From NCBI GenBank assembly GCA_017551165.1, contig JAFZMO010000125.1, forward strand, positions 1 through 35,441: a stretch of 35,441 nucleotides of DNA. Reading direction: 5' to 3'. The stretch is from Lachnospiraceae bacterium. GTDB lineage: Bacteria > Bacillota > Clostridia > Lachnospirales > Lachnospiraceae. The notes under the pieces were generated by a model that did no database searches, was not told where the DNA came from, and saw only the letters and a list, made by a program, of their open reading frames with translations. Shown here piece by piece: positions 1,934-20,559 of this stretch. Numbering within the stretch: position 1 is the stretch's first letter; the number at the start of each line of letters is the position of its first letter. The position numbers and the translations under genes are program-made.

Positions 1934-1960
1934 GTGACAGAGGGACGGTTCTTTCGTCAC
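1934..1960. repeat. REP-like palindromic repeat, copy 2
   Basis: A 27-nt copy, GTGACAGAGGGACGG...CGTCAC. It abuts the 3' end of the ATPase gene so closely that the gene's TGA stop (1959-1957) lies inside the repeat's terminal GTCAC. The adjoining CCCCCTG (1921-1927) can pair with the AGAGGG part, giving a second hairpin. The remaining 1796-1933 holds no gene or clear promoter that I can see. Confidence 0.85.
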
Positions 1961-3042
1961 AGCTGGATGCAGACCTCCCAGCCGTCGTCCTTTCGGCGGC
2001 TCAGCAGGAAATCCGCGTAGTTGTTGAGAAGCTTTAAGTTCAGCTCGTCCAGGTAGGGCTCGCCGAGCGGATCGTCGGAGACGCCGCGGAAGCATATAAA
2101 GATCGTGTGGCGCGTGCTCGTCTCGCTGCAGAGGAGGCGCAGGCAGGCACTTGTCGCAGGTTTCTCGGGGTGCATCAGCACCGGGTACAGCAACTCGTCG
2201 CACAGCACGGGGAGAAGTCGCTCCTGCTTCTTCTCAAACTCGTAGCGGCGCAGGAATGCGCGCAGCTCGCTCTGCAGTGCGTAGAGGTCGAGCGTCGCGG
2301 GCGTGAGCTCCGTCTCGTACATGCGGGAGCGGTACAGGAAGCGCTGCGTCTGCACGTTGGCCGGGTGGTCGAAGACCTGCTCCGGCGTGCCGTCCTCGCA
2401 GATGCACTTGTCGGCAAGGAAGATGACACGTGATGCGACACGGCGGGCAAACCGCAGGTCGTGCGTGACGATGACGCTTGTGATGCCGTCCTCCGCAAGC
2501 GAGCGGATGACGGACTCTACCTCGTCCACCATCGTCGGATCGAGCGCGCTGGTCGGCTCGTCGAAGAGGATGATCTCGGGGTGCATCGCGAGCGTGCGCG
2601 CGATGGCGACACGCTGCTTCTGACCGCCGGAGAGGTCCGCAGGCATCGCGCTCTCGCGGCCGGACATACCGACCTTGGCGAGCAGCTGCTTGGCCTCCGC
2701 GACGGCGTCCGCGCGGGTTACCCCTGCCACCTTCATCGGTGCGAGGATGATGTTCTCGAGGACGTTTAAGTGGGAGAAGAGGTTAAAGTGCTGGTAGACC
2801 ATGCCCATTTTCCGACGGATCCGATTGATGTCGGTGCCGGGGGCGAGGAGGTTCTCGCCGTCGAGCAGGATCTCACCGGAGTCGGGCTCGATCAGGCGGT
2901 TGATGCAGCGCAGGAACGTGCTCTTGCCCTCGCCGCTGCCGCCGATGATGACGACGGTCTCGCCGTCGACGATCTCGAGGCTTAAGTTGTTGAGAATGAT
3001 GTTGCCGTCGAAGGATTTGTTTAGGTTGCGGATGCTCAGCAT
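1957..3042 (-). CDS. Polar amino acid ABC importer ATPase with RsbW-like C-terminal extension
   Basis: A 361-residue protein. Residues 1-240 are a GlnQ/HisP-type ATPase: Walker A GGSGEGKST (34-42), Q-loop Gln84, LSGGQKQRVAIART from 137, Walker B IILFDEPTSALD from 157, H-loop His194. GlnQ-type proteins usually end near residue 240-250; this one has about 120 more. I read that tail as a decayed GHKL/RsbW fold. A helix ending DELLYPVL sits where RsbW-type kinases have the EEIFVNIANYAY N-box. The last stretch, LLNNYADFLLSRRKDDGW..., lines up with the end of the kinase domain encoded upstream (MVKKSMDDVSYRREDDRN...). The N-box Asn and the glycine box are absent, so it is probably a non-catalytic binding module. 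The ATG has GGGAGGTG 8 nt upstream and overlaps the permease stop by 7 nt, implying translational coupling. ATPase call sure; tail assignment moderate. Confidence 0.92.
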   Translation of the reverse strand: MLSIRNLNKSFDGNIILNNLSLEIVDGETVVIIGGSGEGKSTFLRCINRLIEPDSGEILLDGENLLAPGTDINRIRRKMGMVYQHFNLFSHLNVLENIILAPMKVAGVTRADAVAEAKQLLAKVGMSGRESAMPADLSGGQKQRVAIARTLAMHPEIILFDEPTSALDPTMVDEVESVIRSLAEDGITSVIVTHDLRFARRVASRVIFLADKCICEDGTPEQVFDHPANVQTQRFLYRSRMYETELTPATLDLYALQSELRAFLRRYEFEKKQERLLPVLCDELLYPVLMHPEKPATSACLRLLCSETSTRHTIFICFRGVSDDPLGEPYLDELNLKLLNNYADFLLSRRKDDGWEVCIQL

Positions 3043-3716
3043 TCGGTCGCACCTCCCTTCCTCGGGGACGCGATGCGGCGGATGAGGCGCTTCACGATGA
3101 AGCCGATCACGAAGTAAATGATCGCGATCGTGAAGAGGCCGATGAAGGCGTCCATGGTGCGGCTCGAGACGATCTCCGAGGCGCGCGTCAGGTCGACGAC
3201 GGCGAGGTAGCCGACGATCGAGGTCTCCTCCAGCGTGTCCGTAAACTGCGTCTGGTAGAGCGGGAGCGCGGCGGTGACGGTCTGCGGCAGGACGACATAG
3301 CGGAACGCCTGCCAGCGCGTCATACCGAGCGTTCTCGCGGCCTCCGCCTCGCCCGACGCGATGGTGTCGAGCGCCGAGTCAAAGATCTCCGAGAGGTAGG
3401 TCGCGGCCTTCAGCGTGAGGCCGAAGATGACGACCCACAGCACCGGCAGCGAGCTGCGACCGAAGACGACGTACACGAGGATCATGAGGAGCACCATCGT
3501 GGGCAGTTCCATGAAAAATGTCCTTACGACGGACGCGATCTTACGGACAACGCGGTTCTTCGAGCGCAGCGCCGCGCACAGGGCGATCCCGAGGATCGTC
3601 CCGAGCAGAAAACTCGCGAACGTGATCAGAAGCGTCGTGCCGAGACCGCTTAAGAAGAAGCGGTAGTGGTCGTCGCGGATAAACGTGAGATAGAGCTTGT
3701 GTTTCAATGCCTCCAT
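3036..3716 (-). CDS. Polar amino acid ABC importer permease (GlnP/HisM family)
   Basis: A 226-residue inner-membrane permease. Seen: about five hydrophobic segments, and the EAA loop GEAEAARTLGMTRWQAFRY (about 122-140) through which these permeases contact the ATPase. The N-terminal part (GTTLLITFASFLLGTILG) is typical of the His/Glu/Gln/Arg/opine subfamily. There is only one permease gene, so a homodimer is expected. AGGAGG lies 11 nt before the ATG. The gene follows the solute-binding lipoprotein by 27 nt and overlaps the ATPase, so the three form one importer. The membrane core looks intact, in contrast with the unusual lipoprotein and ATPase on either side. Confidence 0.93.
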   Translation of the reverse strand: MEALKHKLYLTFIRDDHYRFFLSGLGTTLLITFASFLLGTILGIALCAALRSKNRVVRKIASVVRTFFMELPTMVLLMILVYVVFGRSSLPVLWVVIFGLTLKAATYLSEIFDSALDTIASGEAEAARTLGMTRWQAFRYVVLPQTVTAALPLYQTQFTDTLEETSIVGYLAVVDLTRASEIVSSRTMDAFIGLFTIAIIYFVIGFIVKRLIRRIASPRKGGATEC

Positions 3717-3743
3717 CGGATGGCAGTCCTCCTGCGGAAATGT

Positions 3744-4622
3744 TCAATGTTGCGTGTCATCGGCCGGGCTTTTTTGTTCAGGGGTCGATGGGTCGATGAT
3801 CTCGATGTCCTGCTGCGTCTTCTCGATGAAGTACAGCGGGCTCTCGTAGAGCGGGTCGGTCGCGAGCAGATAGGAGCTGAGTGCGGTCGCGTCGATCCGG
3901 TCGCTCAGAGCCCCGACGGCCACGTCGTAGAGGCCGCCCTGCAGGCCGTAGATCATATCGTCATAGCTCGAGATGGTGAACTCGAGCTTGTATCCGTTTT
4001 CGTTGGCGAAGAGCTTGAGAGCCTCGAGGTCGTACCCGGTCGGGATATCCTCGTCGGCCTCCGCGAAGGAACGCGGAAAGCCCTCTGCGTCGATGGCGAC
4101 GCGAAGCGTCTTCCCCGTGCCGGTCAGCGGGATGTCCTTGCCGACGTAACTCTTGCCGTCGAAGGCCTCAAGCCGCATGAGAAAATCCGCGTATTCATCG
4201 GTCTTTTGGTACCGCGCGAGAAACTCGTTGAACTCGTCGCGCATCGGGCGCAGGCTCTCGTGGAAGTAGGCGATGTAGCCCGAGGACGCGAACGCCGGAG
4301 TCACCGCCTTCAGCCCGCCGTGCGAGGTCGCCGTGAACTTCCACAGAAGCTCATCGAGCGCCATCAGATCGATCTTGTCGTACTGCAGCGCCAGCAATAT
4401 GTTCGAGACCTCGTTGTACCGCACGAGCGTCAGGTCCGTCCGCCCGGTCAGCACATAGTCCGTGTCGCACGCGATGCCGACGCCGACACGCCGCCCCTCC
4501 AGCTCGAAGGGGTTCGTGACGGGCTTGTATTCCCACTGCTTCCCGCACCCTGTAAGCAAGAACAGGAGCAGGAGCGCGGCGGGGATCATTTTTTTCGGAA
4601 AATGAGTTCGTCGTTCGTTCAT
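3744..4622 (-). CDS. Solute-binding lipoprotein of the importer, lobes apparently in reversed order
   Basis: A 292-residue lipoprotein: signal peptide with lipobox LLTGC, then Gly-Lys. The mature part resembles family 3 solute-binding proteins, but in an odd order. Residues about 38-160 read like the second lobe (LEGRRVGVGIACDTDYVL..., YDKIDLMALDELLW, a late RDEFNEFLARYQKTDEYADFL helix). Residues about 168-275 read like the first lobe (LRVAIDAEGFPRSF..., TGYDLEALKLFANENGYKLEF, SYDDMIYGLQGGLYDVAVGALS, and finally the PLYESPLYFIEK strand). A canonical protein has the first lobe in front. Either it is a circular permutant, or it is a tandem protein that lost its outer halves. It begins 3 nt after the upstream TGA with no good ribosome binding site, so it is probably translated by re-initiation. 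A second in-frame ATG (codon 12) would still leave a signal peptide. Confidence 0.85.
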   Translation of the reverse strand: MNERRTHFPKKMIPAALLLLFLLTGCGKQWEYKPVTNPFELEGRRVGVGIACDTDYVLTGRTDLTLVRYNEVSNILLALQYDKIDLMALDELLWKFTATSHGGLKAVTPAFASSGYIAYFHESLRPMRDEFNEFLARYQKTDEYADFLMRLEAFDGKSYVGKDIPLTGTGKTLRVAIDAEGFPRSFAEADEDIPTGYDLEALKLFANENGYKLEFTISSYDDMIYGLQGGLYDVAVGALSDRIDATALSSYLLATDPLYESPLYFIEKTQQDIEIIDPSTPEQKSPADDTQH

Positions 4623-4625
4623 GTG

Positions 4626-6917
4626 TCAGAATCGCTTTCGTATCGTTACAATGTTTCGGTCGTCCTCGCGGCGGTAGCTCACGTCGTCCATGCTCTTCTT
4701 GACCATGAAGATGCCAAGCCCGCCGACCGTGCGCTCGTCCGCGGAGAGCGTGACGTCGGGGTCGGGCTTTTCGAGCGGGTTGAACGGCTTGCCGGAATCG
4801 CTGAAGGAGATCGCTGCCTCGGTCGCGCCGTCCGCAACGGGCTCGGTGCCCACCGTGATCGTCGCCTCGCCGGGCTCACCCTCGTAGGCGTAGTTTGCAA
4901 TGTTCACGAAGATCTCCTCGACGGCGACGTCGATCGACATAAGAGTCTTCTCGGGACAGCCGGCGTCGGAGAGAGCTTTTTCAACATAAGTAAGCACCGA
5001 CGGAAGCCGGTCCGTCTGCGCGGGGACAGTCAGGGACTGTGCGGCAACGCCAAAGGACTGCTCTGAACCGCCGGCAGAACCGCCGTCAGACTCTTCCTCA
5101 CCGCGATAGCACAGGCACAGCATGGTGATGTCGTCAAACTGCGGAGCCTCGCCGACAAACTCGGCGACAGCGTCCTTCACGCGCTCGCACACGGCCTTCG
5201 TCGCGGCGTCGCCGGAGCCAAACGATGCGGACAGGACGGAGAGCAGGCGGTCGTTGCCGAACAGCTGCTCGTCGGCGTCCGTCGCCTCGGTCACGCCGTC
5301 GGTGTAGAGGAACAAAAGGTCGCCAGGTTGCAGTTCTAGCGACTGCTCGCGGTACGGAACGCCCTCCATCGCGGCAAATGTGAGGTTGGCCTTCTGCTTG
5401 ATGAACGAAGCCTCGCCGCCGCGGATCAGAACGGGCGGGTTGTGGCCGGCGTTGACGAAGCGCACAAGGCCGGTGTCGGTCTCCAGGAAGCCCATCCACG
5501 CGGTGATGAACATCTCGGCGTCGTTGCCCTCGCAGAGCTTGGCGTTCGCGTTGGTCGCGATCTCCGCGGGAGCATCGCCGCGCTCGGCGTAGTCGCGGAG
5601 CACGGTCTTGCCGGTCATCATGAACATGGCAGCGGGGATCCCTTTGCCGGAGACATCGGCGACGAGGAACGCAAGGCGGTTCTCGTCGAGAAGATAGAAG
5701 TCATAGAAGTCGCCGCCGACCTCCCTGGCCGCGTCCATCGTCGCGTAGAGACTGAAGTCCGTGCGATCGGGGTACGGCGGGAACACCGACGGGAGCGCAG
5801 ACTGCTGGATGCTCTTCGCGAGAGCGAGCTCGCGGTCGATGCGCGCATCCGCGGCGGCGATGTATTGTTTCAGCGTGCTGACGGTCGCGTTGATATCGTC
5901 GGACAGCGAGGCGAACTCAGTGTTGGAGCGCACGTTGACCTGCTCCTCGAGGTCGCCGTCCGTGATCTTCGAGAGTGACGTGTTGACGCGGTTGATGTTG
6001 TTGACGACAAGCTTTCGTACGAGTAGGAAAATGACCCCGAACAGCGTGAGAAACACGAGCACCTCAAGCACCGCGGTCAGGCGCACGGAGGTGTCCCTCT
6101 GGAGGAGGATCTCATTTTCCGGAAGAACGGCCACGATGTAGTAGCCCTCGGTGAAGACGTACATGCATGAGCACGGCTCGCCGTACACGTCGGATCGGAA
6201 CACCTCGTTCTCCTTCATGGTGGCGCGGTCGATCCAGATGCCGGTCACGTCGAGGTTTTGGCCCTCCTCGCTGTGGTTGCGGTCGCTCACGATGTTCCAG
6301 TTGACGTCCGCGATGATGATGCTGCCGTTCTCGCCGACATGGCGGTTCCTCGTGGCGCCGATGACCTGCGTGTCGATGTCGCGCTGGAAGCGCTCGGCGT
6401 CGTAGGCGACCTCGACAAAACCGCCCGCCTTCAGGCAGACGCCCGCGTATTTGCGGCGGAGCGACGGGTCGTAGGAGGTGCGCTGGTAGCTCTGCACATG
6501 CTCGGTCTCGCTGCCGTCGAGCAGGCCGAGGAACTCGGCGGACTGCTTGCCGGAGCGCATATCGTAATTCAGAAAATCAGGGTGTGTCGTGGAGATGATG
6601 ATGCCGCCAGCGTCGATGATGTTAATCTCCGCGATGTCGTAGCGGGACAGAAGCGCGGCAAGGCCGTCCGCGTCCGTCGCAGCGCCGCCGTCAATGTCTG
6701 CGGCGACCTTGCGCGTGAGTGCGAGAAGGTTCGCGTCGGAGGCGTCGATGACGTCCTGCCGCACGTCGGCGATGTTGAGGCGCAGCAGGTTGTATGCACT
6801 TTTCTGCGAGAGCCGCGTCTGAAGAGTCCACGAAAAGACCATGGATACGGCGAACGCCACACCCACGATCAGCAACAGCCATTTTAAAAATGTGCCGGAA
6901 ATCGTTCTCTTCTGCAT
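4626..6917 (-). CDS. Membrane sensor SpoIIE/RsbU-type phosphatase fused to RsbW-type kinase
   Basis: A 763-residue signalling protein. Order: TM helix (about 13-31), extracytoplasmic sensor of about 245 residues (possibly Cache-like), TM helix (about 281-303), HAMP linker (about 304-355), PP2C-type SpoIIE phosphatase (about 363-605), GHKL kinase domain (about 635-763). Phosphatase metal-site motifs are present: EVGGDFYD (399), VADVSGKG (419), NAGHNPP (489), DGVTEA (540), QFDDITML (593). The kinase keeps its N-box (EEIFVNIANYAY, 667) and GGLGIFMVKK (732). Family knowledge: RsbU-type phosphatases remove, and RsbW-type kinases add, a phosphate on a STAS protein Ser/Thr. Both activities in one chain make it a bifunctional switch, comparable in concept to Rv1364c. 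GAGGGAG lies 6 nt before the chosen ATG; an ATG at 6944 overlapping the STAS stop (ATGA) is the alternative and would add nine residues. Confidence 0.93.
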   Translation of the reverse strand: MQKRTISGTFLKWLLLIVGVAFAVSMVFSWTLQTRLSQKSAYNLLRLNIADVRQDVIDASDANLLALTRKVAADIDGGAATDADGLAALLSRYDIAEINIIDAGGIIISTTHPDFLNYDMRSGKQSAEFLGLLDGSETEHVQSYQRTSYDPSLRRKYAGVCLKAGGFVEVAYDAERFQRDIDTQVIGATRNRHVGENGSIIIADVNWNIVSDRNHSEEGQNLDVTGIWIDRATMKENEVFRSDVYGEPCSCMYVFTEGYYIVAVLPENEILLQRDTSVRLTAVLEVLVFLTLFGVIFLLVRKLVVNNINRVNTSLSKITDGDLEEQVNVRSNTEFASLSDDINATVSTLKQYIAAADARIDRELALAKSIQQSALPSVFPPYPDRTDFSLYATMDAAREVGGDFYDFYLLDENRLAFLVADVSGKGIPAAMFMMTGKTVLRDYAERGDAPAEIATNANAKLCEGNDAEMFITAWMGFLETDTGLVRFVNAGHNPPVLIRGGEASFIKQKANLTFAAMEGVPYREQSLELQPGDLLFLYTDGVTEATDADEQLFGNDRLLSVLSASFGSGDAATKAVCERVKDAVAEFVGEAPQFDDITMLCLCYRGEEESDGGSAGGSEQSFGVAAQSLTVPAQTDRLPSVLTYVEKALSDAGCPEKTLMSIDVAVEEIFVNIANYAYEGEPGEATITVGTEPVADGATEAAISFSDSGKPFNPLEKPDPDVTLSADERTVGGLGIFMVKKSMDDVSYRREDDRNIVTIRKRF

Positions 6918-6940
6918 ACAAACTCCCTCTCGGAAAATGA

Positions 6941-7237
6941 TCATTCGATCGTCAGAATGTCGGAAAATCCCGTGATCTCAAAGATCTCCATAATCTCGGG
7001 CGTCACGTTTTTGAGGACCATCGAGCCCTGCTTGTTCATCGTCTTCTGTGCGGAGAGGATGACGCGCAGGCCCGCCGAGGAGATGTAGGACAGACCGGCC
7101 AGGTCAAAGACAAGCTCACTGATCCCGTCCATCTCCGCGCGAAGTTCGCTCTCAAACTGCGGGGCAGTGATGGTGTCGAGGCGTCCGCTCGGGGCAACGG
7201 TCAATTTTCCGCCTTCCAGCGTTTTCGTAACAGTCAT
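6941..7237 (-). CDS. STAS-domain anti-anti-sigma-like protein (RsbV/SpoIIAA family)
   Basis: A 98-residue single STAS domain. Seen: GRLDTITAPQFESEL near the start and SYISSAGLRVIL around residues 50-61, where these proteins carry the phosphorylated Ser (here Ser53/Ser54). Family knowledge: the RsbW-type kinase phosphorylates this Ser and the RsbU-type phosphatase restores it; the unphosphorylated form binds the kinase or another partner. It is first in the operon and its TGA is followed at once by the gene encoding both enzymes. No sigma factor gene is in the operon, so the output partner may be the RsbW-like tail of the importer ATPase or a sigma factor elsewhere. AGGTG sits 6 nt before this ATG; a GTG three codons upstream (7246) is possible. 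Confidence 0.93.
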   Translation of the reverse strand: MTVTKTLEGGKLTVAPSGRLDTITAPQFESELRAEMDGISELVFDLAGLSYISSAGLRVILSAQKTMNKQGSMVLKNVTPEIMEIFEITGFSDILTIE

Positions 7238-19014: not shown

Positions 19015-20559
19015 ATGACTAAGGAACAGATGGAACAGATCGTGCTGGCGAACATGCAGAAGATTTATCTGTACTGCGTGCGCAGGCTCGGAAATGCAAC
19101 GGACGCCGAGGATGTGGCGTCGGAAGTGACCGTGGAGCTGCTCAGCTCATTTTCCAAAGTGAAGGATGACAGGGCCGCGCTCGGATATGTGTGGGCCGTC
19201 GCGGACAATTTGTGCAAGAACTACTGGAGAAGGGCCGAACGGTACGGGACCGTGGAGATCCCGGAGGATTACGTCGGAATGCAGCAGATTACCGTGGAGG
19301 AGGACATGATCCACAGCGAGGACATCTCGCTGCTGCGGAGGGAACTGGCGCTCCTAAGCGAAACGTATCGCGAGGTCATGATCGGGCACTACATCCGGCA
19401 GGAGAGTTGCGGGGAGATCGCGCGCAGGCTTGGGATCTCACAGACCAATGTCAAGCAGTATCTGTTCGAAGGAAGAAAGAAGGTAAAACAAGGTATGGAT
19501 AAGCAGAGAGAATACGGTGTCTACAGTTACGCACCCGAAAAATTCACATTTAACTTCTGGGGAGACAATTCCACCGGATACTGGGAACTCTTCGAGAGAA
19601 AGCTCCCGGGCAACATCATGCTGTCGATATGGGACAGCCCCAAGACCATGGAGGAGCTGAGCACGGATGTCGGCGTTGCCGTGCCGTACCTGGAAGAGGA
19701 GGTCGCGAAGCTTGAGGAGTTCAAGCTCCTGATCAAGAAGGGCGGCCGCTACCACAGCGGGCTCGTGATCTACGATAGGGCGTTTGACGACGCCGTCCGC
19801 GAGTCGGCGCGCGCCGTGATCAAGGACAACATCGATTTCATCAAGGCGGCAGTGGAGAAGGGCAAGAGCCTGCTGCCGGAGACTGACTATCAGTGCTATC
19901 AGGACGATGAGAACACGCGCGGATGGTTCATCCTCACGCTCATCCTCTGGGAGGCCGTACAGCAGTCGGAGTCGAAAATGAAGACGCGCCTTACGTTCCC
20001 GCTGTTGGCGAACGGTTACAAGGGCTACGTGATGGGCTTGCGTGGGGAAAATCAGCTCGCAATGTCGGGCATTTACGGTATGTACTCCCTGGATAAGGGT
20101 TACATGCGTATTCTGAATTACAACGTGCTGACGGACAAGGTGGTAAATCCTTTCGAGTCCGGCGCGAGGGGCGTGTTCTGCGCCTGCGAGGATCGTCTCG
20201 GCGAGACGGCGCAGCTTGAGAAGCTCACCGACATGCTTGAGAGACAGATCGTTCACGTCGAGGACGGCAAGATCTGCCCGAACTACGCGGAGATCTCCAA
20301 CAAGGACTACGAGGGACTCATGAAGCAGCTTGCGGCCGAGATCGACACGGTGGCTGCGCTCACCGCCCAGGTGCGCGACAAGGCGGCTGACATCCTTGCG
20401 AGCCGCGTGCCCAAGGAGCATACGGACGCCCGCGAGATCGGCAGCATCGTCTCGATGTGGTCCCTCCTGGAAAATGCGGCTTCCGCCATTCTGGAGACCG
20501 GCTACCTCACCAAGGGCACCCCGGCCCAGAACCTCACCACATTTTATTTCAAAAACTAA
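19015..20559 (+). CDS. ECF-type sigma factor with long winged-helix-containing extension
   Basis: A 514-residue protein, about three times a normal ECF sigma factor. Region 2 lies at about 12-78 (IYLYCVRRLGNATDAEDVASEV, GYVWAVADNLCKNYWRR). Region 4 lies at about 105-162 (LRRELALLSETYREVMIGHY, GEIARRLGISQTNVKQYLFEGRKKV, a full helix-turn-helix). The remaining 350 residues include a winged helix at about 200-255 (NIMLSIWDSPKTMEELSTDV, VPYLEEEVAKLEEFKLLIKKGGRYH). A larger domain follows, with FPLLANGYKGYVMGLRGEN and a helical end. Family knowledge: ECF sigmas with C-terminal extensions use them in place of a separate anti-sigma. Inference: the extension senses a ligand and controls the sigma core or adds DNA contacts. 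Start has GAGG 7 nt upstream. Confidence 0.88.
   Translation: MTKEQMEQIVLANMQKIYLYCVRRLGNATDAEDVASEVTVELLSSFSKVKDDRAALGYVWAVADNLCKNYWRRAERYGTVEIPEDYVGMQQITVEEDMIHSEDISLLRRELALLSETYREVMIGHYIRQESCGEIARRLGISQTNVKQYLFEGRKKVKQGMDKQREYGVYSYAPEKFTFNFWGDNSTGYWELFERKLPGNIMLSIWDSPKTMEELSTDVGVAVPYLEEEVAKLEEFKLLIKKGGRYHSGLVIYDRAFDDAVRESARAVIKDNIDFIKAAVEKGKSLLPETDYQCYQDDENTRGWFILTLILWEAVQQSESKMKTRLTFPLLANGYKGYVMGLRGENQLAMSGIYGMYSLDKGYMRILNYNVLTDKVVNPFESGARGVFCACEDRLGETAQLEKLTDMLERQIVHVEDGKICPNYAEISNKDYEGLMKQLAAEIDTVAALTAQVRDKAADILASRVPKEHTDAREIGSIVSMWSLLENAASAILETGYLTKGTPAQNLTTFYFKN

Follow-up and report, generated by a model that had tools for sequence, protein, structure and literature searches.

A degenerate RsbW-type domain on an ABC importer of Lachnospiraceae suggests that a partner switch may control a nutrient transporter directly

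Partner switching is the textbook route by which bacteria free sigma factors. The RsbU-RsbV-RsbW and SpoIIE-SpoIIAA-SpoIIAB systems are built from a STAS protein with an acceptor serine, a PP2C phosphatase and an RsbW-type kinase. We analyzed contig JAFZMO010000125.1 of a Lachnospiraceae bacterium (assembly GCA_017551165.1; all 35,441 nucleotides (nt), hereafter the window), in which genes for the same components are present in one operon with an ATP-binding cassette (ABC) importer. Unlike in the two sigma factor switches, phosphatase and kinase are parts of one membrane sensor, a second, dead RsbW-type domain with the predicted fold of the kinase is located on the transporter ATPase, and the seven genomes with an operon of the window type have no SigB/F/G sigma factor above the cut-off. 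We consider it somewhat probable that this module is a partner switch with a transporter instead of a sigma factor as its output, in which dephosphorylated STAS protein would dock on the dead RsbW-type tail and gate the importer.

In the MlaFEDB system, the STAS protein MlaB binds the ABC ATPase MlaF, which has a C-terminal extension of about 25 residues. The phosphomimetic exchange T52E in MlaB weakens the association with MlaF, phosphorylation of MlaB is unproven, and the authors left regulation open (PMC7367683; statements on this and the following papers refer to those parts of them that were considered here). The window locus is similar in that a STAS protein is proposed to act on an ABC ATPase, but the ATPase carries an RsbW-type tail of 118 residues, and kinase and phosphatase are encoded in the operon. 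In the related SiaABCD switch of Pseudomonas aeruginosa, SiaC activates the diguanylate cyclase SiaD, and the output of the switch is thus an enzyme and not a transporter (PMC8457831, PMC7647112). SiaA was the best NCBIfam match of the window sensor, with 67.9 bits compared to an equivalog cut-off of 700. In SulP/SLC26 proteins, which also link STAS with transport (PMC8256260), the STAS domain is built into the transporter, while in the window operon the STAS protein stands alone and its kinase-like partner is on the transporter. The same paper reviews free STAS proteins in gene regulation, and its main text does not contain the term "ABC transporter". A literature search at the level of titles and abstract beginnings, which left subscription papers and bioRxiv mostly outside and is no proof of absence, gave no description of a transporter design combining a switch with a dead RsbW-type tail.

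The operon extends from 7237 to 1957 on the minus strand and comprises the genes for the STAS protein (7237-6941, 98 amino acids (aa)), the sensor (6917-4626, 763 aa from an internal ATG, 772 aa if the start is at 6944), a lipoprotein (4622-3744, 292 aa), the permease (3716-3036, 226 aa) and the ATPase (3042-1957, 361 aa). According to the coordinates of the open reading frames (ORFs), the spacings in gene order are 23 nt, 3 nt and 27 nt, followed by a 7-nt overlap of the permease and ATPase genes. An initial annotation of the window had described this tight operon and the lack of a sigma factor gene within it. Both statements were confirmed, the gene content by the ORFs together with Pfam. 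The RsbW-like tail, the permutation of the binding protein and the occurrence of the design in other transporter families had not been part of that annotation.

The proposed dock for the STAS protein is the C-terminal tail of the ATPase (1960..2319, minus strand). Comparison of the tail profile with the RsbW-type domain by hhalign resulted in 97.4% and E 1.6e-11. The structure model of the tail was confident, and its best PDB matches were anti-sigma-kinase complexes. All of the first 16 Foldseek matches were to STAS partners in complexes, in most cases with the STAS protein in the structure, and a SiaB-SiaC entry was also among the fold matches. The ATP site is lost, since the N-box Asn, the G1 Asp and the GGxG motif were each present in 0 of 23 aligned tails; the catalytic Glu (residue 283 of the window ATPase) was kept in all 23. 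The tail is thus related to the anti-sigma kinases by profile and fold but has none of their N, G1 and G2 ATP boxes. Taken together, profile comparison and the predicted fold show an RsbW-type domain without its ATP motifs. A domain of this kind would be expected to bind a STAS protein, and the tail is the candidate dock.

The STAS protein (6941..7237, minus strand) is RsbV/SpoIIAA-like (Pfam STAS 61.5 bits, cut-off 22.6) with the loop Ser53-Ser54-Ala-Gly-Leu-Arg, and both serines were invariant in 18 of 18 aligned homologues, as is typical for the conserved acceptor of a partner-switching module. The sensor (4626..6917, minus strand) consists of a dCache-like extracellular part, a HAMP domain, a SpoIIE phosphatase domain and an RsbW-type kinase domain. 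The phosphatase domain (5106..5687) is of the RsbU-type PP2C kind found in such modules and reached 173.9 bits with Pfam SpoIIE (cut-off 25), and the kinase domain (4635..5027) 87.7 bits with HATPase_c_2 (cut-off 27.4). All 16 kinase domains in the alignment, that of the window sensor included, had the Glu, the N-box Asn, the G1 Asp and the GGxG motif.

The gene order STAS-sensor-substrate-binding protein (SBP)-permease-ATPase on one strand was kept in all six other loci of the same genus that were fetched, and we conclude that the arrangement is not due to chance. The initial annotation had made its proposal depend on conservation of this order, and the order was indeed conserved in these loci. 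Of 22 genus genomes searched, 7 contained the SBP, the window's own included. In a set of 41 relatives it matched 12 at E 0.001, with strong matches in seven genus genomes, again including the window's own. A tail profile of eight rows matched nine of the 41 relatives, eight from the genus and one from another family (G034). Seven of the eight genus matches had the five-gene form, and G017 had a fused SBP-permease-ATPase-tail protein beside STAS and sensor; a further tail copy lies at a contig end in G010. In G034, the genes downstream of STAS and sensor encode an SDF symporter and a 910-aa fusion of SBP, permease, ATPase and tail. The same profile matched 16 of 392 genomes in an order-wide search. 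A class-wide search with a 23-row profile matched 37 of 391 genomes, many of these matches being kinases rather than tails. In 11 of 13 loci fetched from the class-wide search, tail and ABC domain were in one ORF.

Several other arrangements were seen: STAS-sensor-SDF-fused importer (L024 and kin), SDF-fused importer-STAS-phosphatase/kinase (L101, L102), fused importer, one gene, and then STAS-sensor (L073/L104), STAS-fused importer with SpoIIE upstream (L110, L111), and MATE-SpoIIE-kinase adjoining the importer, with no STAS detected (L226, L227). The joining of the same parts in clearly different ways across families argues for a working link between them. As a separate observation, L056 (3884-5185) encodes a STAS domain fused to an APH-type phosphotransferase domain (Pfam), and the gene for a tailed importer ATPase follows 25 nt downstream.

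We also tested whether tailed importers are associated with module genes. A gene for STAS, SpoIIE or a separate kinase was counted if it had the same orientation as the importer and lay no more than 8 kb away. Such neighbors were present for 24 of 55 tailed and 0 of 42 tail-less importers (24 of 45 and 0 of 35 when at least 4 kb of upstream sequence was available). STAS alone was a neighbor of 20 tailed importers and of none of the tail-less ones. When both strands were counted, one tail-less locus, L160, had a STAS gene on the opposite strand. The tail-less set consisted of 4 loci, 37 ABC ORFs and L097 (on the contig of L051), whose frame is broken ahead of the tail, so that it was scored as tail-less, and which has no upstream flank. 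Importers with the ABC domain cut by a contig end or frame break were left out (L045/L087, L046/L089, L055, L109, L220). L149, L150, L176, L177 and L179, originally chosen as tail-less controls, turned out to be tailed and were moved to the tailed set. In a tree of 94 ABC domains (54 tailed, 40 tail-less), restricted to rows covering nearly the whole domain, all 54 tailed domains were on one side of a single branch with support 98/86. This is compatible with a single origin of the tailed ATPases.

A number of results weigh against the docking of a STAS protein on the tail as the function of this module. The window tail alone had no HATPase_c_2 match in Pfam. The best of seven ABC tails reached 16.3 bits, with a gathering score of 27.4. 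In total, ten single domains were compared to this family (the seven ABC tails, two MATE tails and one SDF N-domain): one MATE tail passed with 43.1 bits, the other MATE tail and the one ABC tail matched weakly (14.5 and 16.3 bits), and the other seven domains gave no match. The eight-row tail profile resulted in only 43.7% and E 2.4e-4 in hhalign, and a PDB sequence search with the tail profile found no kinase among its three matches up to E 1, the best of which was an alanyl-tRNA synthetase (E 0.055). The homology of the tail therefore rests on the wider family and on the fold. The Fisher p values for the neighbor test (9.4e-8 and 3.3e-8) overstate the association, since the rows are related, many of them stem from near-identical gut metagenome-assembled genomes, and the tailed ATPases form one clade. 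No same-strand module gene was present within 8 kb of 31 of the 55 tailed importers; 10 of these have less than 4 kb of upstream sequence, leaving 21 of 45. An order-wide permease search that was blind to tails had turned up five tailed importers (the five former controls), of which one was near a module gene. At solitary tailed importers, docking would have to occur in trans unless the tail serves a different purpose. At least one STAS domain was found in each of 16 genomes searched, several of them with solitary tails, and action in trans is thus possible. Furthermore, STAS-sensor pairs without an importer exist in G011, G014, G020 and on contig C131 of G000, the last two contigs being short. 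In G011 no tail was detected with either tail profile. G014 also had no detected tail at the pair, but it has a separate phosphatase/kinase-STAS-MATE-tail cluster elsewhere. G017, which has the fused importer, harbors a further STAS gene and a strong kinase gene side by side on C19.

The solitary tailed importers (31 of 55, and likewise four of the five met by chance) would fit a tail that is a regulatory or dimerization domain of the ATPase and binds something other than STAS, such as a small ligand or another tail, with the STAS-sensor pair being just a frequent neighbor. MetN-type ABC ATPases are known to have a C-terminal regulatory domain and resemble the window ATPase in carrying such a domain on an amino acid importer. 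The MetN model matched only the ABC part of the window protein (residues 2-236), and the tail is predicted to be of the RsbW type. MetN-type domains were not among the fold matches of the tail, which excludes nothing. We regard this explanation as unlikely because module genes on the same strand were found at 24 of 55 tailed but 0 of 42 tail-less importers, because the first 16 fold matches came from STAS-partner complexes, and because three types of transporter carry such a domain beside the module.

It is also unlikely, and to a similar degree, that information flows from the importer to the switch. In that case the tail would sequester STAS protein depending on the state of the transport cycle, and substrate flux would set the amount of free STAS protein for another target. 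This requires the same parts, an RsbW-type tail could titrate STAS protein, and the operon layout fits. A listener would be needed, however, and the genomes of the window type showed no SigB/F/G sigma factor above the cut-off and, apart from the sensor, no strong RsbW-type match. In the window genome, the sensor matched HATPase_c_2 with 92.1 bits and the next match had 31.8 bits, within a 496-aa frame. In the six five-gene relatives, the sensors reached 88-100 bits and all other matches listed were below 30. The SigB/F/G family (TIGR02980) was above the cut-off in 0 of 7 window-type genomes, with matches below the cut-off of up to 147 bits there, and a target of this family was rejected; the model passed twice in G034. 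Four of the genomes (G000, G003, G010, G013) are less than 92% complete, and absence is weak evidence in G003, G010 and G013, which are 79-85% complete. Besides the STAS domain of the operon, five of the six relatives had one within a frame of about 560 aa (SulP as judged by eye in the two that were fetched), and G003 had only that of the operon. A second STAS-sensor pair was found in G000 on C131, where it is cut by the contig end.

These data bear on two statements of the initial annotation. It had proposed that STAS phosphorylation may gate the importer or that the importer may report amino acid supply. The identification of the tail as a degenerate RsbW-type domain supported the proposal in part, and the data favor gating over reporting, but only indirectly. 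It had also named binding of the STAS protein solely to a sigma-factor kinase elsewhere as an outcome that would speak against the idea. As far as this could be assessed across the window genome and its six five-gene relatives, the only RsbW-type match above 32 bits was the operon's own sensor, and a SigB/F/G factor above the cut-off was not found.

Control of an unrelated target elsewhere (an unrecognized sigma factor or an enzyme) by a STAS-sensor pair that shares the operon for expression only is the least probable explanation: it could account for the pairs without importer (L071, L072, L075, L079), for G011 without detected tail and for a sigma-like ORF 12 kb away in the window, but the gene order was kept in 6 of 6 window-type loci, the parts are re-joined differently in other families, and SigB/F/G factors were above the cut-off in 0 of 7 window-type genomes compared to two in G034. 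This ORF (19015-20559, opposite strand, 514 aa) has an N-terminal part that is ECF-type sigma-like by eye and a long C-terminal extension. The paralogous pairs without adjoining importer include one beside a class II tRNA synthetase gene (L071) and one after two exporter-like genes (L072).

If the STAS protein does dock on the tail, the dCache-like domain would read an extracellular ligand and set the balance of phosphatase and kinase activity. Unphosphorylated STAS protein would dock on the dead RsbW-type tail, and phosphorylated STAS protein would be released. The tail should be unable to phosphorylate the STAS protein, and we propose that the docked state is therefore set by the sensor alone. 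RsbW-type domains pair, and since an importer has two ATPases, its tails could do likewise. Docking could thus hold the ATPase dimer apart or help to close it. Docking may either stop or permit transport, and the data are compatible with either sign.

Domains similar to the tail were also found on other transporters. Profile comparison linked an N-terminal domain of the SDF symporters in related clusters to the kinases (95.6%, E 1.1e-8) as well as to the tails (94.7%, E 5.7e-8); the Glu was present in 12 of 12, the N-box Asn in 0 of 12 and the G1 Asp in 0 of 12 sequences. In MATE exporters the additional domain is C-terminal (99.4%, E 5.9e-22), and two whole MATE proteins passed HATPase_c_2 in Pfam with 38.6 and 41.5 bits (cut-off 27.4). 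The N-box Asn was kept in 2 of 5 of these MATE domains, and some of them may therefore still be kinases. Of the transporter genes with the additional domain, 10 of 14 for SDF and 7 of 7 for MATE proteins had a same-strand module gene at a distance of up to 8 kb. As the loci had been fetched for tails or sensors, and the controls were two truncated SDF genes and none for MATE, these counts are a description and not a test. MATE-type exporters with a C-terminal RsbW-like domain near SpoIIE and kinase genes were seen in L059 (3073-4836), L077 (9692-11458), L081 (5665-7359), L226, L227 and L231. In the last three, one or two acetyltransferase-like ORFs (by eye) lie between the SpoIIE and kinase genes, and STAS was not detected. 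A cluster of Blautia schinkii DSM 10518 (L115, JNKJ01000006.1) comprises all three transporter types together with switch genes, namely an SDF symporter whose N-terminal domain is RsbW-like, a STAS protein, a small kinase, a fused tailed importer, a MATE exporter with tail, SpoIIE and another kinase. The cluster also holds a 395-aa STAS protein, the remainder of which is APH-like by eye.

The extracellular stretch of the sensor is flanked by two membrane helices (by eye). The dCache-like putative sensory domain (6063..6827, minus strand) was modeled with a pLDDT (predicted local distance difference test) of 80.2 and a pTM (predicted template modeling score) of 0.75. The best Foldseek matches include dCache-type ligand-binding domains, led by those of Tlp3 and Mlp24, two chemoreceptors for amino acids, with a template modeling (TM) score of about 0.4 and a root mean square deviation near 10. 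By these values, the overall arrangement of the domain differs from the matches, and any ligand assigned to it is a guess. The HAMP domain (5868..6020, minus strand) scored 22.6 bits in Pfam, slightly under the cut-off of 25. The sensor of L024 (3124-5985) has an additional N-terminal 5TM-5TMR_LYT membrane domain (Pfam 90.8 bits) ahead of the part shared with the window sensor, and similar N-termini were seen in the kin of L024.

By family, the transporter is predicted to be an ABC importer of the polar amino acid type. The permease (3036..3716, minus strand) matched Pfam BPD_transp_1 with 79 bits (cut-off 26.4) and TIGR01726, the HEQRo-type permease of polar amino acid uptake, with 50.4 bits (cut-off 42.2). 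The GlnQ-like nucleotide-binding domain (2323..3042, minus strand) scored 125.3 bits with Pfam ABC_tran (cut-off 25), and the ATPase reached 280.3 bits with NCBIfam GlnQ, under the equivalog cut-off of 379. The lipoprotein (3744..4622, minus strand) matched SBP_bac_3 with 39.5 bits (cut-off 26.4) over half of the profile only. It belongs to the family 3 binding proteins of polar amino acid ABC importers, but with its halves in swapped order: residues 173-240 aligned to SBP_bac_3 positions 1-67, and residues 40-147 to GlnH positions 128-238 (22.9 bits). The same swap was seen in comparison to the PDB (residues 172-239 to positions 13-79 of the 5tuj chain, E 2.9e-6; residues 29-144 to positions 105-219 of the 6svf chain, E 0.029). 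Since both halves matched, a truncated protein was rejected, and we read the lipoprotein as a circular permutant, with weak matches (22.9 bits; PDB E 0.029) for its N-terminal half. In other families, the permease carries a fused unit related to the permuted binding protein; in some cases this unit is repeated, two or three times in L049 and L055.

Promoter-like and terminator-like sites were called from consensus matches only. A weak promoter-like site is located 5' of the STAS gene (7310-7283, minus strand), one of four sites in a region where 1.1 were expected. A terminator-like intrinsic hairpin of 12 pairs, 7 of them G-C, with a T run follows 3' of the ATPase gene (1946-1919, minus strand).

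Our results suggest that bacteria may place a nutrient transporter under the direct control of a partner switch. The SDF symporters and MATE exporters in related clusters may follow the same logic. More tentatively, as a possibility that we rate below the proposal for the window operon, partner switching may be a general post-translational control of transporters in Clostridia: the dead or dying RsbW-type domains on ABC importers, SDF symporters and MATE exporters would be sockets for free STAS protein, and phosphorylation by the sensor would decide which of the transporters run. This would bear, in another setting, on the question of whether STAS phosphorylation regulates the ABC transporter MlaFB (PMC7367683, in the parts considered). 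Switch parts that are tied to transporters via a dead kinase domain would give gut Clostridia a way to adjust nutrient uptake quickly without new transcription, and this route is concrete enough to be tested.

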